From a virus: a DNA stretch of 22,295 nt. Under the pieces are notes generated by a model. That model worked only from the letters and a program-made list of their open reading frames with translations. It was not told the origin of the DNA and made no database searches. Below, piece after piece: positions 5,728 to 22,009 of the stretch (within the stretch, counting starts at the first letter, position 1; each line of letters opens with the position of its first letter). Location of the stretch: the IMG/VR virus record IMGVR_UViG_3300044701_003263, positions 1 through 22,295 of that record. One strand, 5' to 3'. The position numbers were made by a program, and so were the translations under genes.

Positions 5728-6171
5728 AGATAATAGACTGATAACTTCTGCTGATACTTCAGCAAAAGTGTAAGGGGTCGGAGGCCAGTTATTTGATTTA
5801 AGATCTGGGTCAACTGATGCAGTTAAAATTATATTGTTTATCCAAGCTCTAACATTGTTTAATTTTGGGGAAACTTTATTTAAAACTGTTAATTTATTTT
5901 CAAAATCTAAACAAGTAAGAAGGCGGATTGGTGAATATGATTGGTTATTCAGCCATTCTTCTGCTGAGAAAAGAGTTTGCACTGGAGTAATTTCTTCAAA
6001 TTTTTCAAATCCATTGGTTTTACTATAATTAAAAACATAATCTCCATTTTCTAGAGCATATAATTCTGGTAATTCTATTACTTGGTTGTTTCTATATAAT
6101 AAAACAACAGGTTCTACATTTACAACTTGATACGGTGCTGGAATTAATTCGCTTAAATTATTTGGTTTCAT
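5719..6171 (-). CDS. Unknown 150-residue protein between fibre genes
   Basis: I do not recognise a family. The protein has no signal peptide or membrane segment. The first half (VEPVVLLYRNNQVIELPELY) looks like beta strands; the second half (NVRAWINNIILTASVDPDL) looks helical and ends with a Trp-Pro-Pro-rich stretch (SNNWPPTPYTFAEV). Its ATG at 6171 overlaps the stop of the upstream fibre gene by 4 bases (ATGA), so expression is coupled to it. Small genes placed directly after fibre genes are often fibre-assembly chaperones (T4 gp38/gp57A, Caudo_TAP proteins), which makes that a reasonable but unproven guess; a virion subunit is equally possible. Confidence 0.65.
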   Translation of the reverse strand: MKPNNLSELIPAPYQVVNVEPVVLLYRNNQVIELPELYALENGDYVFNYSKTNGFEKFEEITPVQTLFSAEEWLNNQSYSPIRLLTCLDFENKLTVLNKVSPKLNNVRAWINNIILTASVDPDLKSNNWPPTPYTFAEVSAEVISLLSNS

Positions 6172-6812
6172 GATACGTAAAATATAAGAACTACATCTTG
6201 TATAGTTGCTCCATTTGACCCTCCGCTAGGTCCATAAGCAGCAAATTCTGCATTGTAATAAGCTTGGGTGTTATCTATAGCTATATCGTTAGATGTTGAA
6301 AAATAAATTCTTTCTGCACCTCCAACCCCTCCTCCAAAGTCTTCTAATCCAGATACTATTGAAGATCCTCCACTGGTAATTCTTTTAAGACGACAATGAA
6401 CTGAATCATTAAAACTACTAGTTACTCTTACAACCATTGTTATTTTATAAGTTTTGGCGAATGGAGTAGTTTGTGTTAATAAGCTTGATGGATTAAACCA
6501 ATAAAAATTAGCTAAACTGGCGCTACCCAATTCTGTATTACCTGCCGATCCGGTAGCGGCAAAAAAACCAGCTTTAGTAACCGGATCATATCCACTATTA
6601 GAAAATGAAGCGGCTGCAAATCTTAATAAAGTAACTGGACCAAAAGAATTGATAGGATCAAACCATGTTGCGGAATTAGAAGAAACAAAAGTAGATACTG
6701 GTAAATTTTGAAGGGTGACTTTTTTAGTTGAGCCAGAATTAACAATAGGAATAACATCAGATGTCGCTGGGGTTATTAATTCTGGTAATTGAGATATGCG
6801 TAAATCGGCCAT
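6168..6812 (-). CDS. Short tail fibre/virion protein with beta-sandwich-like C-terminus
   Basis: 214 residues. The N-terminus, MADLRISQLPELITPATSDV followed by IPIVNSGSTKKVTLQNL, is the widespread phage fibre start of the form I-x-L-P...D-x-x-P-I-V-x-x-G-x-T-K-K-V-T. The remainder is rich in beta-type residues, with a glycine-rich turn (GGGVGGAE) and an ending (GATIQDVVLIFYVS) resembling that of the 621-residue fibre upstream (TRIRKAILEFYTVT). It has no Trp-stalk repeat, so it may be a short fibre or a cap related to the terminal domain of its neighbour. A GATAAATA element lies 6 bases before the ATG. Followed by the 150-residue gene in a 4-base overlap. Confidence 0.72.
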   Translation of the reverse strand: MADLRISQLPELITPATSDVIPIVNSGSTKKVTLQNLPVSTFVSSNSATWFDPINSFGPVTLLRFAAASFSNSGYDPVTKAGFFAATGSAGNTELGSASLANFYWFNPSSLLTQTTPFAKTYKITMVVRVTSSFNDSVHCRLKRITSGGSSIVSGLEDFGGGVGGAERIYFSTSNDIAIDNTQAYYNAEFAAYGPSGGSNGATIQDVVLIFYVS

Positions 6813-15202: not shown

Positions 15203-15916
15203 TCAATTTAAATAAGTTAATAAATTACCGTCTGTTTGTGGTTCATCTGATACAAAATAATCAGATTGGATGGTATATATTTTGTTTACAGTTTCTTCCA
15301 TTTTCTTAAACAACCATCCTTTAATAGTAAATGTCGTTTCTGCAGAGATTCTAAAAGGTTGACTACCTTGTAAATCTGTTGGATATGTTACATTAACGTT
15401 ACCCGACCATAAAACTTCTGTTCTAATTTCATGAGGTATTTGAGATTGCTTTATACCAGGCAATTTCCAAGATATTATAATATAAGGATCACAATACGGA
15501 ATAAAATTAGTAATAATTTGGTCCATGTCTGATTGGTATTTCGTTACTATGGTCATAGCAACATTAATATTAACAGGCACTGGTTGGGGTATTTTTTTAA
15601 CAAAGTCTGCTGGTGTTTGTGATGTACTATAGGGAATGTTGAAACCTGATATCTTGTTGTAAACTCTTGACGAATCTCTAGATATTCCGGTTATATTAAC
15701 AGCTACTGCCGGTACAGTAATACCACCTGGCGCTGGTGTTGTTAAATTTTCATATAATCTTTGTTTAGGTGCGTATACAAAATTAACTTTAAAACCGCTT
15801 GATGGAGGTGTTAAAGTTCCATTATTATCATATCTTTTAATAATAATGTCATTAAAAGCTCCAACAAACTGTTCTAAAAGGGTTTGTATTTCAAAATTAA
15901 AAGTATAGTTTTTAAT
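15203..15916 (-). CDS. 15: Tail sheath stabiliser/completion protein, gp15-like, apparent ATT start
   Basis: The conventional frame beginning at GTG 15580 (125 residues) is only the C-terminal half. The same frame is open upstream to the helicase stop (15946-15944) and encodes family-like sequence: FVGAFNDIIIKRYDNNG, FKVNFVYAPKQRLYENL, TGISRDSSRVYNKISGF, then PVNINVAMTIVTKYQSDMDQ, WSGNVNVTYPTDLQG and FTIKGWLF. This is the order of T4-type gp15 (DNDI/FNDI, YAP, TKYQ-DMDQI, FTIKGWLF). No ATG, GTG or TTG precedes the conserved part. An ATT at 15916-15914 sits 7 bases after GGAG (15927-15924) and would give 237 residues with an N-terminus of family-like length (T4 gp15: 272). The protein would cap the contractile sheath at the neck. 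Alternative: a sequencing error in an ATG. Confidence 0.8.
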   Translation of the reverse strand: MKNYTFNFEIQTLLEQFVGAFNDIIIKRYDNNGTLTPPSSGFKVNFVYAPKQRLYENLTTPAPGGITVPAVAVNITGISRDSSRVYNKISGFNIPYSTSQTPADFVKKIPQPVPVNINVAMTIVTKYQSDMDQIITNFIPYCDPYIIISWKLPGIKQSQIPHEIRTEVLWSGNVNVTYPTDLQGSQPFRISAETTFTIKGWLFKKMEETVNKIYTIQSDYFVSDEPQTDGNLLTYLN

Positions 15917-15923
15917 AAAAAAT

Positions 15924-15927
15924 CTCC
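15924..15927 (-). promoter_or_regulatory. Shine-Dalgarno GGAG deciding the ATT start of the gp15-like gene
   Basis: GGAG within TTTGGAGA on the minus strand, 7 bases before ATT at 15916. It is one of the strongest ribosome sites in a window where most genes have none, and no other start codon lies within its reach. Confidence 0.6.
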
Positions 15928-15943
15928 AAAGGGTTATATATAT

Positions 15944-17614
15944 TTACATAAAACGTTCTAAAAAGTGCTTGGGTAAATGGTATTTGTTACTTAATATGGT
16001 TTTAACTGCAGTACCGTCTAAAATATATGTCGTCGAGAAATCATCAATTGAACGTGTACATCTACCGCTCATTTGAATGAGAGTGTCTAACATTTTCATA
16101 ACATAATGTTTTGGATTTTTTTCAAACATTTTTTTAATTCTTTTTGAACCTAAAGGTAGAAAAGGTGCTTTTATTATAATTTGAAATCTGCCTAAATCAT
16201 CATCTAAACTAATACCTGTATCTAAAGAAGGACTAACCAAAATAGTATCTTCTGTTTTTCTTAATTTATGGTCATCTATAATATTTTGATTTGTTGTACC
16301 AATTTCTCGAAACAGAAATCTAGGATTATTTCTAACTTTCTTTTTAAATTCTTCTGTAATTTGGTTTGTATGAGTGTGTATTATACCTTTTTCGCCTTTA
16401 TGCTTTTCACAAATTTCTAATGCTAATTTAATGATTTTGGGTAAATCCTTTTGCATTGTTTTGTATGACAGGTTATATTGCGTTGCACAATATATTGGTG
16501 ATTTTTGAGGTTCAAATGTTGATGGTATTTCAGTAAACCCATATTCGTCTTTTTTAATTCCTAAACTTTTTGCAAATTCTTCTGGATTACTAATAGTGGC
16601 AGACATCATTAAAATTTTTTCTGCTCCGCTAAAAATGTATTGAGCTACTGGTTTTATATCATAAGGTACAAACGTGACTCCTTCAGCGTCTTTTTTTTCT
16701 ACTAGGTACTCACATTCATCCCATTTTTCTAAAACTATACTCAAAGTGTTAACCATTTCTGTATATCTTCCTAGTCTTTGCATCTGTTTAAAATGTAGAC
16801 CAGATGGTGTATTCTTTTTAGAAGACATCAATGCCATTTTGTGTTTAAGATCTGCCCATTCATTTTTTAATTGTATAAAGATATCCTGCAACCAATGCTT
16901 TGCTTTAATACTATCATCTGTTATTAATTTTTTAAAGGTTATATTTTCTGATTGTAAAAATGAATAAGATACGTTTACAGTATATTGGCTTACCAATTCA
17001 TCTTCTAAATTACTAGCTTCATCGCAAATATAAAATTCCCTTTTTCTTAAAAACTCTGGAAGGTTAAAAAAAGCTTTATAATTCAAAATTGAATCTTGTT
17101 TAGTTAAAGCTTCATTTCGTGTTTTATAATAAGGGCATCTATTTTTGTCAAAGCATTCCTGTTTAAGCTTTGGTGAAAAGAGGCAAGGTGCGAAATTGAC
17201 AGTTAAATTCGGGTCAACTGCACACATATAATTACTTTTACCCTTAACGGATATTAGTTCTGGAAACAACGATAGGTATTGATCTTGTAATGATTTGGTA
17301 ACTGTTAATATAAATGCTCCAAACGGTTTATTATTTAAAAATAAATCTTCATGAACATAACCACCATTTTTATCTTTTTTATATATGCCATATGATTCTA
17401 TAATGTCTTTGCGTATATCATCTATAGGTGATGTAGCTCTAGCAGCGGATACTCCTATGTGAGATTTTCCAGAACCAGTCGGCAAATTTACTATAGCATA
17501 TTTTTTCCCGGAAGAAAAAATATCTTGTATTTTTTTAAATGCTTCTTTCTGTTGTTGACGTGGTGTGTCTTGTGAGGGGAAATTCTCTAAAAAATTAAAT
17601 TTGTTCTTCTCCAC
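15944..17614 (-). CDS. DinG/XPD-type superfamily 2 helicase with Fe-S cysteines
   Basis: 556 residues. Walker A is at 45-51 (PTGSGKS). Four Cys (C131, C144, C154, C160) lie between motifs I and II in the spacing of the 4Fe-4S domain of the XPD/DinG family. Motif II is DEAS (198-201) in place of DEAH. SATIS lies mid-protein (motif III region), and motif VI is QMSGRCTR (514-521). XPD/DinG enzymes unwind DNA 5'-3' using ATP. In a phage it could act in replication, recombination or R-loop removal. The GTG start at 17614 is the first start codon after an in-frame stop and overlaps the upstream gene by 20 bases. The order helicase, gp15, portal shows that DNA-metabolism and virion genes share one transcript here. 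Confidence 0.88.
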   Translation of the reverse strand: MEKNKFNFLENFPSQDTPRQQQKEAFKKIQDIFSSGKKYAIVNLPTGSGKSHIGVSAARATSPIDDIRKDIIESYGIYKKDKNGGYVHEDLFLNNKPFGAFILTVTKSLQDQYLSLFPELISVKGKSNYMCAVDPNLTVNFAPCLFSPKLKQECFDKNRCPYYKTRNEALTKQDSILNYKAFFNLPEFLRKREFYICDEASNLEDELVSQYTVNVSYSFLQSENITFKKLITDDSIKAKHWLQDIFIQLKNEWADLKHKMALMSSKKNTPSGLHFKQMQRLGRYTEMVNTLSIVLEKWDECEYLVEKKDAEGVTFVPYDIKPVAQYIFSGAEKILMMSATISNPEEFAKSLGIKKDEYGFTEIPSTFEPQKSPIYCATQYNLSYKTMQKDLPKIIKLALEICEKHKGEKGIIHTHTNQITEEFKKKVRNNPRFLFREIGTTNQNIIDDHKLRKTEDTILVSPSLDTGISLDDDLGRFQIIIKAPFLPLGSKRIKKMFEKNPKHYVMKMLDTLIQMSGRCTRSIDDFSTTYILDGTAVKTILSNKYHLPKHFLERFM

Positions 17615-19939: not shown

Positions 19940-20599
19940 TTATAGTATAAAATACTTTCTTTGTCTTTTCAACCTATCACTTTCATTTTTATCTTCAAAT
20001 TTTAAAAAGTTTTGATCACTTTGATATATAGCTCCTTCTGGCATTAAATTTTTACAATCGGTGGTTTGGACAGATGAAAACGAATCCATTGCATCATTCC
20101 AAAATATACTATTATCACCTCTTCCAACAAAAATTATTCTTTCTTCTATATCATACAACCATATTGCATATGTTCCTGAAATGTGTTCTAATGTCAGTTT
20201 AAAGGAAATATAGCTGTTTTTGGTTTGTTTATAATAATTGTTATATAAAAAAGGTATCCATTGACTATCTACTACAAACTCTGTTTTCCAATTTTCTTCT
20301 AATTCTAAAGTATTTATTAAAATTCCATTATGTGCCGCTATAGCTCTTCCAATATTAAATGGGTGGTTGTAGGAAAGACCTCTGCCCTTTTCATTTGTAG
20401 TAGGTGCTCTGTTATGTCCTAAATTATAAGAAGTGGATTCAAGATATAATGTAAATTCTGGAGTGTCTTTAAATTTTTGAATAGCATATCCTTCTTTACC
20501 TATGTGTAGATAACCTACACCTTCACTTCCTCTTGACTTGTTTGTTTCGTGTAATTCGTAAAATTGTTCTGGTGTTATTGCACCGTATATACCGCACAT
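19940..20599 (-). CDS. Class II (Ntn) glutamine amidotransferase domain protein, stand-alone
   Basis: 219 residues. It begins MCGIYG, so Cys2 would be the N-terminal nucleophile after Met removal. Other class II glutaminase marks are RGSEGVG (23-29), GHNRAPT (61-67), NHPF (78-81), HNGIL (90-94) and DSQ (111-113, equivalent to the D that binds glutamine in GlmS/PurF). Only the glutaminase domain is present; there is no PRTase, SIS or synthetase domain. It would release ammonia from glutamine for a partner enzyme. QueC two genes upstream uses ammonia, and fused Gat-QueC proteins are known in phages that make 7-deazaguanine-modified DNA. The most likely partner is therefore QueC, here as a separate subunit; the DUF366 protein is another candidate. 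Confidence 0.85.
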   Translation of the reverse strand: MCGIYGAITPEQFYELHETNKSRGSEGVGYLHIGKEGYAIQKFKDTPEFTLYLESTSYNLGHNRAPTTNEKGRGLSYNHPFNIGRAIAAHNGILINTLELEENWKTEFVVDSQWIPFLYNNYYKQTKNSYISFKLTLEHISGTYAIWLYDIEERIIFVGRGDNSIFWNDAMDSFSSVQTTDCKNLMPEGAIYQSDQNFLKFEDKNESDRLKRQRKYFIL

Positions 20600-20600
20600 A

Positions 20601-21302
20601 TTATTTGTATTTTTGTTTAAATTTTTCTGCGCTTTGTTTCCAAGCTTCTGACATCATACTGTCGCCCATTCCGAAATGCACTACTTTAATAGGATATACT
20701 CCCATTTTTAATCTATTTTTATTTGCTCTTAAACAAAAAGATATATCATAATGGTGAAAATCAAAATCTTCATCAAATTTAGTATCGGTTTCAAGTAATT
20801 TTGCTACATTTACAGCTATAAACAATCCATCTAAAACTAATGTTCTTGAATCTGTTGGACCAAATACTGTAGTCCAATAATGTTTGTCTTTAGAATGGGC
20901 TACTTCTCCTACCATTTGTTCTCTTGGTGACATCAAATGCCATGCTGGCATAGGAGAATTTAAATCACAAATTTTAGCTCCAGCTAACCCCACTATGTCA
21001 TATTTTTCAAAAGCCAATGCTATTTTTTCTTCAAAAAATATGTCTTCAATTAAGACATCATCATGAATAAAAATTATTTTTTTGTGTTTATTATTTTCAT
21101 TTATAAAGGCGTTGTAATTCCAAGGTAAACCTTTTTTATTTTCGTAAATTATAGAAGCAATTTTACTTAAACCTGATTTTTGTAAAAAAAATGAAGCAGG
21201 GCTTTTATTCCAAAAGTATTCTTTTGAATGTGGAGTCGCTATGACAATTTGATATTCATTAAAATCAAAATGAGGGGTGTGTCCTAAAACTATTTCATTC
21301 AT
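20601..21302 (-). CDS. Glycosyltransferase, GT2/StrF-like
   Basis: 233 residues. GLPWNYNAFI (58-67) precedes FIHDDV (78-83), the nucleotide-sugar and metal-binding DD of GT-A folds. LDGLFIAV (157-164) and FDEDFDFHHYDISFCLRA (176-193) are typical acceptor and catalytic regions, and H209 lies in VVHFG. The whole resembles the StrF-type domain (GT2 relatives) in which a short N-terminal Rossmann part is followed by 'F-HDDV'. The ATG at 21302 overlaps the queC stop by 4 bases. Placed between queC and the glutaminase, it may glycosylate the modified base, but virion or host-surface sugar targets are also possible. Donor and acceptor cannot be read from sequence. Confidence 0.8.
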   Translation of the reverse strand: MNEIVLGHTPHFDFNEYQIVIATPHSKEYFWNKSPASFFLQKSGLSKIASIIYENKKGLPWNYNAFINENNKHKKIIFIHDDVLIEDIFFEEKIALAFEKYDIVGLAGAKICDLNSPMPAWHLMSPREQMVGEVAHSKDKHYWTTVFGPTDSRTLVLDGLFIAVNVAKLLETDTKFDEDFDFHHYDISFCLRANKNRLKMGVYPIKVVHFGMGDSMMSEAWKQSAEKFKQKYK

Positions 21303-22009
21303 GTTATTTTACAATTATATTCTTTCCAAGGTATTTCTACTGCATAAGGAATCGGATCTTTATACCCTGCTTCTATAAAACCTTGAATTCTAGAAGAACA
21401 TGAAGCACATTTACCGCATGCTTTGTCTTCTCCCTTATAACAAGTGTGTGTATATATAAAATTAACTTTGTTATCGATTCCTTCCTTGATAATATCTGCT
21501 TTTGAATAGGTTATAAAAGGAGCCTTAATACTGATTTTATTGCGTCTATTTAAACCTATAATTTTATTCATGTAATCTAAAAAATCTAATGAACAATCCC
21601 AGTGACCGCTATGGGTGTCTACTTCTGCTGCTCCATAATAGACGGTAGAGGCGTTTTCAGATTCTGCTACAGCTGTAGCTATAGATAAAAACATCATGTT
21701 GCGATTAGGAACATAGGTTATAGGTTGGGGATCACCTAAAACTTCTTTAACATCCGGTACTTTAAGGTCGGTATTTAAAAGAGACGAAGTATGTATAACG
21801 TCTTTTAAAAAAGATATATCTAACAATTTATGGGGGATATCTAAATGCATGCATTGGTATAATGCCATTTTTAGTTCTCTGCTATGTCTTTGCCCGTAAT
21901 TAAACAATAAAGCAATAGGGTTGGTTTCACGAGCTGCTTTATATAAAAGACACGTCGAGTCCAAACCTCCGCTCATCAATACAATTGATTTATCTTTTTT
22001 GCCTTCCAT
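21299..22009 (-). CDS. queC: QueC, 7-cyano-7-deazaguanine (preQ0) synthase
   Basis: 236 residues (E. coli QueC 231). SGGLDST (13-19) is the PP-loop that binds ATP; YVPNRNMMFLSIA follows; C190, C198, C201 and C204 bind zinc with the E. coli spacing (C188, C197, C200, C203). QueC converts 7-carboxy-7-deazaguanine to preQ0 through an amide intermediate, using ATP and ammonia. In phages preQ0 or its intermediates can be inserted in DNA (by DpdA) and protect against restriction, or feed tRNA queuosine. First gene of the minus-strand operon in this window; the 24-base gap to the divergent plus-strand gene holds no clear Shine-Dalgarno. Confidence 0.95.
   Translation of the reverse strand: MEGKKDKSIVLMSGGLDSTCLLYKAARETNPIALLFNYGQRHSRELKMALYQCMHLDIPHKLLDISFLKDVIHTSSLLNTDLKVPDVKEVLGDPQPITYVPNRNMMFLSIATAVAESENASTVYYGAAEVDTHSGHWDCSLDFLDYMNKIIGLNRRNKISIKAPFITYSKADIIKEGIDNKVNFIYTHTCYKGEDKACGKCASCSSRIQGFIEAGYKDPIPYAVEIPWKEYNCKIT

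Follow-up and report, generated by a model that had tools for sequence, protein, structure and literature searches.

In Escherichia coli, infC, the gene for IF3, begins at an AUU codon that is subject to IF3 feedback and is led by a strong Shine–Dalgarno (SD) motif. To our knowledge, natural AUU starts are few and mostly occur in single genes, and the part of the literature that we covered contained no phage gene with an experimentally proven AUU start. The tail protein gp15 is present as one hexamer per phage T4 tail, and few copies of it are needed. Another non-canonical start codon, GTC, opens the Streptomyces gene sigR and is repressed by IF3 (PMC5472188). Late genes of phage T4 are transcribed from gp55-dependent TATAAATA promoters. 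The 8-bp TATA box of such a promoter has its first base at −13, roughly one helical turn ahead of the site where transcription begins (PMC2988020).

Here we analyse a gp15 gene in a DNA stretch of 22,295 nucleotides (the whole of which we call the window) from an uncultured T4-like phage. This gene shares its AUU start with infC; AUU behind an SD motif is a rare type of start already known, here in a gene and a setting that are new for it. Unlike infC, it is a phage structural gene with no known feedback partner, and among its relatives AUU changes back and forth with GTG and ATG. The likeness to sigR lies in a non-canonical start that keeps one protein low and that gene callers miss; codon and gene differ, sigR is a cellular regulator, and the effect is experimental for sigR whereas we infer it for gp15.

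A gp15 gene without a standard start codon

The helicase gene upstream ends at TAA 15946–15944 on the minus strand, and the gp15-like frame continues in the same phase, open down to its own stop at 15203. Nine codons (ATA TAT ATA ACC CTT TGG AGA TTT TTT) separate the helicase stop from an ATT that follows GGAG with a spacer of 7 nt (Table 1), and the first ATG, GTG or TTG in the frame is GTG 15580, 112 codons past the ATT. The GGAG stands out because an SD-like motif precedes the first ATG in 0 of 24 window genes (control, 1). These features agree with the initial annotation, whose positions for the stop, open frame, GGAG, spacer and ATT were all correct, as were its statements that standard start codons are missing between the helicase stop and the conserved part and that SD motifs are scarce in window genes. 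Elsewhere in the window, at 19940–22009, visual inspection suggested two genes of possible 7-deazaguanine metabolism, one resembling a glutamine amidotransferase (MCGIYGAI...) and the other resembling QueC (SGGLDSTCLLY...).

Table 1 Features of the gp15 locus in the window.
Feature	Coordinates	Strand	Evidence
DNA helicase gene, upstream neighbour	15944..17614	-	phrog_2488 (2.2e-90), Helicase_C_2
TAAATA box resembling a late promoter; overlaps the stop codon of the helicase gene	15941..15946	-	Enriched upstream of genes, phased to relatives' starts
Predicted 5′ leader of ~19 nt with SD, +1 near 15935	15917..15935	-	Inferred from T4 late-promoter geometry (PMC2988020)
GGAG, Shine–Dalgarno-like motif	15924..15927	-	Sequence; only one before a window gene start
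ATT (AUU) start codon	15914..15916	-	Aligns with GTG/ATG starts of relatives; sole start candidate
gp15-like tail terminator/tail sheath stabiliser coding sequence, 237 codons from ATT	15203..15916	-	PF16724, phrog_227, PDB profile, fold
GTG, earliest standard start in the frame; rejected	15578..15580	-	Would lose 112 residues, many conserved

The protein read from the ATT matches PF16724 (T4 gp15) at residues 8–227 (5.8e-21), scoring 75.2 bits against a curated cut-off of 25, and phrog_227 across residues 2–226 (3.2e-20). A search of the PDB with the family profile retrieved T4 gp15 (4e-08) and placed profile position 37 opposite T4 residue 35, so the N-terminus that begins at the ATT has the length typical of the family; residues from 2 onward align with the starts of relatives. 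T4 gp15 likewise gave the best PDB fold matches (9mkb, E 2.6e-12; 4huh, E 3e-09) to a structural model predicted with moderate confidence (mean pLDDT 67). The two proteins share family, fold and N-terminal length, whereas their identity is low, at 18–20% in the fold alignment. Pfam, PHROGs, the PDB sequence match and the fold all identify the gene as a T4-type gp15, a tail terminator or sheath stabiliser, as first annotated from the sequence, and the family-like N-terminal length claimed there also holds.

The same annotation placed gp15-type coding sequence upstream of GTG 15580, and codon changes relative to a 74%-identical relative (L002) confirm it. Before GTG 15580, 34 synonymous and 29 nonsynonymous changes fall in 111 codons; after it, the counts are 36 and 34 in 125 codons. 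Because this pattern is the same on both sides and the PF16724 match begins at residue 8, the upstream part is coding.

Relatives carry the same AUU start

An assembly error, in which ATG was misread as ATT, had been named as the main alternative in the initial annotation. Comparison with related phages refutes this explanation. An independent contig (L001, IMG sample 3300047564) with 2 single-nucleotide differences from the window in 7,184 nt has the identical ATT, and the codon at precisely the aligned site is also ATT in ten other distinct relatives. In L002 it stands at the same place behind GGAGG; eight further relatives also combine ATT with an SD motif (L047, L090/L132, L123, L146, L209/L222, L214/L221, L216 and L223), and one has ATT without SD (L207/L217). 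The SD-like motif thus recurs in nine other distinct ATT relatives. The nearest relatives, L001 and L002, share the codon, and more distant ones have ATG (41) or GTG (98) at this site. As the nearest relatives have ATT, the ATG and GTG codons elsewhere reflect real variation in the family and no error.

A start other than ATT, whether a misassembled ATG, GTG 15580 or one of the upstream ATA codons at 15943 and 15937, is highly unlikely. AUU starts are rare, which speaks for such a reading, but the independent contig and the ten other relatives speak against it, as do the homology and the codon-change pattern seen ahead of GTG 15580. The ATA codons precede the SD motif and are missing in L002, L209, L214 and L216; in the last three an in-frame stop lies just four codons ahead of the ATT. 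AUU is the only possible start with an SD motif at normal spacing, which is 6–9 nt in the ten distinct SD-bearing ATT phages including the window. The proposed ATT start is therefore upheld by the aligned starts of relatives and by the lack of any other candidate, and we conclude with high confidence that gp15 translation starts at AUU 15916, where fMet would be incorporated.

Two other genes were considered in the same light. A PhoH-like frame in one relative (G018, 1196–1942 on the minus strand, L068) appeared to be a second ATT gene, as its first 38 codons include no standard start, and was rejected; it is probably truncated or misassembled because its relatives have another N-terminus that begins some 25 codons further upstream. 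The gp15 of Synechococcus phage S-T4 (NC_048049.1, L303) was likewise dismissed as a hidden start, since an ATG is present and merely unannotated. The gene is annotated from 1666, which leaves out about 72 codons; the ATG lies at 1450, overlaps the upstream stop and fits the homology.

A late-promoter-like box closely precedes many start codons

Genes of the window and ten relative contigs carry a TATAAATA-like box, predicted from sequence, that is overrepresented in the upstream regions and keeps a set distance from the start codons. TAAATA precedes ATG at exactly 5 nt in 97 cases and at exactly 6 nt in 71, compared with roughly 30 at other distances, and precedes GTG at these spacings in 26 and 14 cases compared with about 9; no enrichment was observed before TTG in these contigs. 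Either TAAATA or TAAGTA occurs 5–6 nt before ATG or GTG beyond chance in G003, G007, G016, G024, G019 and other relatives, and two window genes (517–1371 and 6168–6812) have this arrangement. The box would be of the −10 type that precedes late genes in T4. In the window's family, by contrast, it sits 5–6 nt before many starts, and the T4 geometry would then make +1 coincide with the start codon or adjoin it, predicting leaderless late mRNAs for GTG genes, and similarly spaced ones, of the relatives. At window gp15 the box ends 24 nt before the ATT, so the predicted leader measures about 19 nt and includes the GGAG. A search for gp55, limited to one guessed PHROG number, located none.

AUU recurs together with an SD motif

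To place the AUU start in its family, we searched viral contigs for gp15 genes and compared 156 distinct 5′ ends. The start codons are GTG (98), ATG (41), ATT (11), ATC (3), TTG (2) and ATA (1); the scan for ATT, ATC and ATA starts was a pattern scan blind to SD motifs, and a control scan for CTG found nothing. The commonest state, in contrast to window gp15, is GTG directly behind the late-promoter box: 94 of 98 GTG starts have TAARTA 5–7 nt ahead. Among ATG starts, 16 of 41 have TAARTA at 5–7 nt and 25 have another spacing. An SD motif is present in none of these 139 GTG and ATG genes. ATT starts show the opposite arrangement, with TAARTA at 5–7 nt in 0 of 11 and an SD motif in 10 of 11; both TTG starts also have an SD motif. 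The ATC and ATA starts all have TAARTA at 5–7 nt and no SD. These apparent starts, ATC in three near-copies (L208/L218/L220) and ATA in L130, stand directly behind TAAATA. Overall, SD motifs accompany ATT in 10 of 11 cases and other codons in 2 of 145 (Fisher p 4e-13 without correction for kinship).

On a 104-row gp15 tree the ATT states need 8 changes, at least 7 of them forced by well-supported branches. Independent pairs on this tree associate ATT with SD in five cases, with none against and two neutral (sign test p 0.0625), and a quick 155-row tree points in the same direction with less power. Some of these changes could be losses, and to say that ATT arose several times is safer than to count gains exactly.

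Initiation strength may be tuned to low output

Repeated emergence of ATT, nearly always with a strong ribosome-binding site, argues for selection to hold gp15 synthesis down. In the window, the late-promoter box would drive a short leader transcript on which GGAG positions the ribosome at AUU. Most relatives would instead make a leaderless or nearly leaderless mRNA from a box 5–6 nt before GUG, whereas the window's lineage and several others would have placed an SD-bearing leader between box and start and adopted AUU as the start codon. Three recurring arrangements would result, namely a leader with SD and AUU or UUG, a leaderless mRNA with GUG, and a leader without SD and with AUG, in which the stronger ribosome-binding site is paired with the weaker codon. 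If gp15 is needed in small amounts, a very weak start codon would offset a strong SD. We judge it reasonably probable that initiation is tuned in this way under selection for steady low gp15 output, with low output as the putative selected trait. The rule of compensation is loose: 16 ATG genes have leaderless spacing, L207 combines ATT with no SD, and the ATC and ATA starts also lack SD.

Drift would account for the same codon if ATT is barely harmful, SD motif and structural context carrying initiation and the weakness of the codon not being selected. Gain of an SD motif could precede and relax the codon, and ATT occurs in just 11 of 156 5′ ends. Against this, several separate changes all led to ATT, ATT is kept between 74%-identical relatives, and 0 of 139 ATG and GTG genes have an SD motif; we regard drift as rather improbable.

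Regulation as in infC is the main rival explanation, unlikely in our estimate yet less so than drift. IF3 would reject AUU, and most gp15 synthesis would await a shortage of IF3 or a change in the ribosomes late in infection, for which a bS21 encoded by the phage might be responsible. SD with AUU is the infC arrangement, and the odd codon behind an SD motif is always ATT save for two TTG, never ATA, ATC or CTG. IF3 represses non-canonical starts (PMC5472188), and bS21 genes are found in several relatives, the ATT lineage G024 among them. However, a search of 13 phage records found no IF3 gene, bS21 is also present in lineages with GTG or ATG, and close relatives get by with other start codons. 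That a late structural gene repeatedly evolved an SD–AUU start sensitive to IF3 or ribosome state, as a translational gate on neck assembly, is a doubtful proposal.

The bS21-like genes occur in six large relatives (L061, L062, L165, L166, L167 and L168), four of them above the Pfam cut-off; their sequences fall into two or more clearly distinct types, and they are found in ATT and non-ATT lineages alike. Upstream of genes in G024 (L169–L175), 7-mers containing CCTCCT, complementary to SD, are strongly enriched (9 versus 0 expected). A Bacteroidota host with a hidden anti-SD was considered and is not supported generally, as the two large relatives G007 and G024 show TTGACA-type motifs and some strong-SD genes. 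Motif counts in these two are consistent with a host that has TTGACA promoters and makes some use of SD motifs; sequence from the window's own lineage is too limited for such counts. A scan of genome contigs with the gp15 alignment for a host found no relatives.

Gene callers limited to ATG, GTG and TTG shorten window gp15 to 125 of its 237 residues or misplace its start. In this family gp15 adopted AUU on several occasions, each with a parallel shift in the ribosome-binding site in nearly all cases, and the gp15 relatives constitute a natural experiment on the trade-off among start codon, leader and SD motif.
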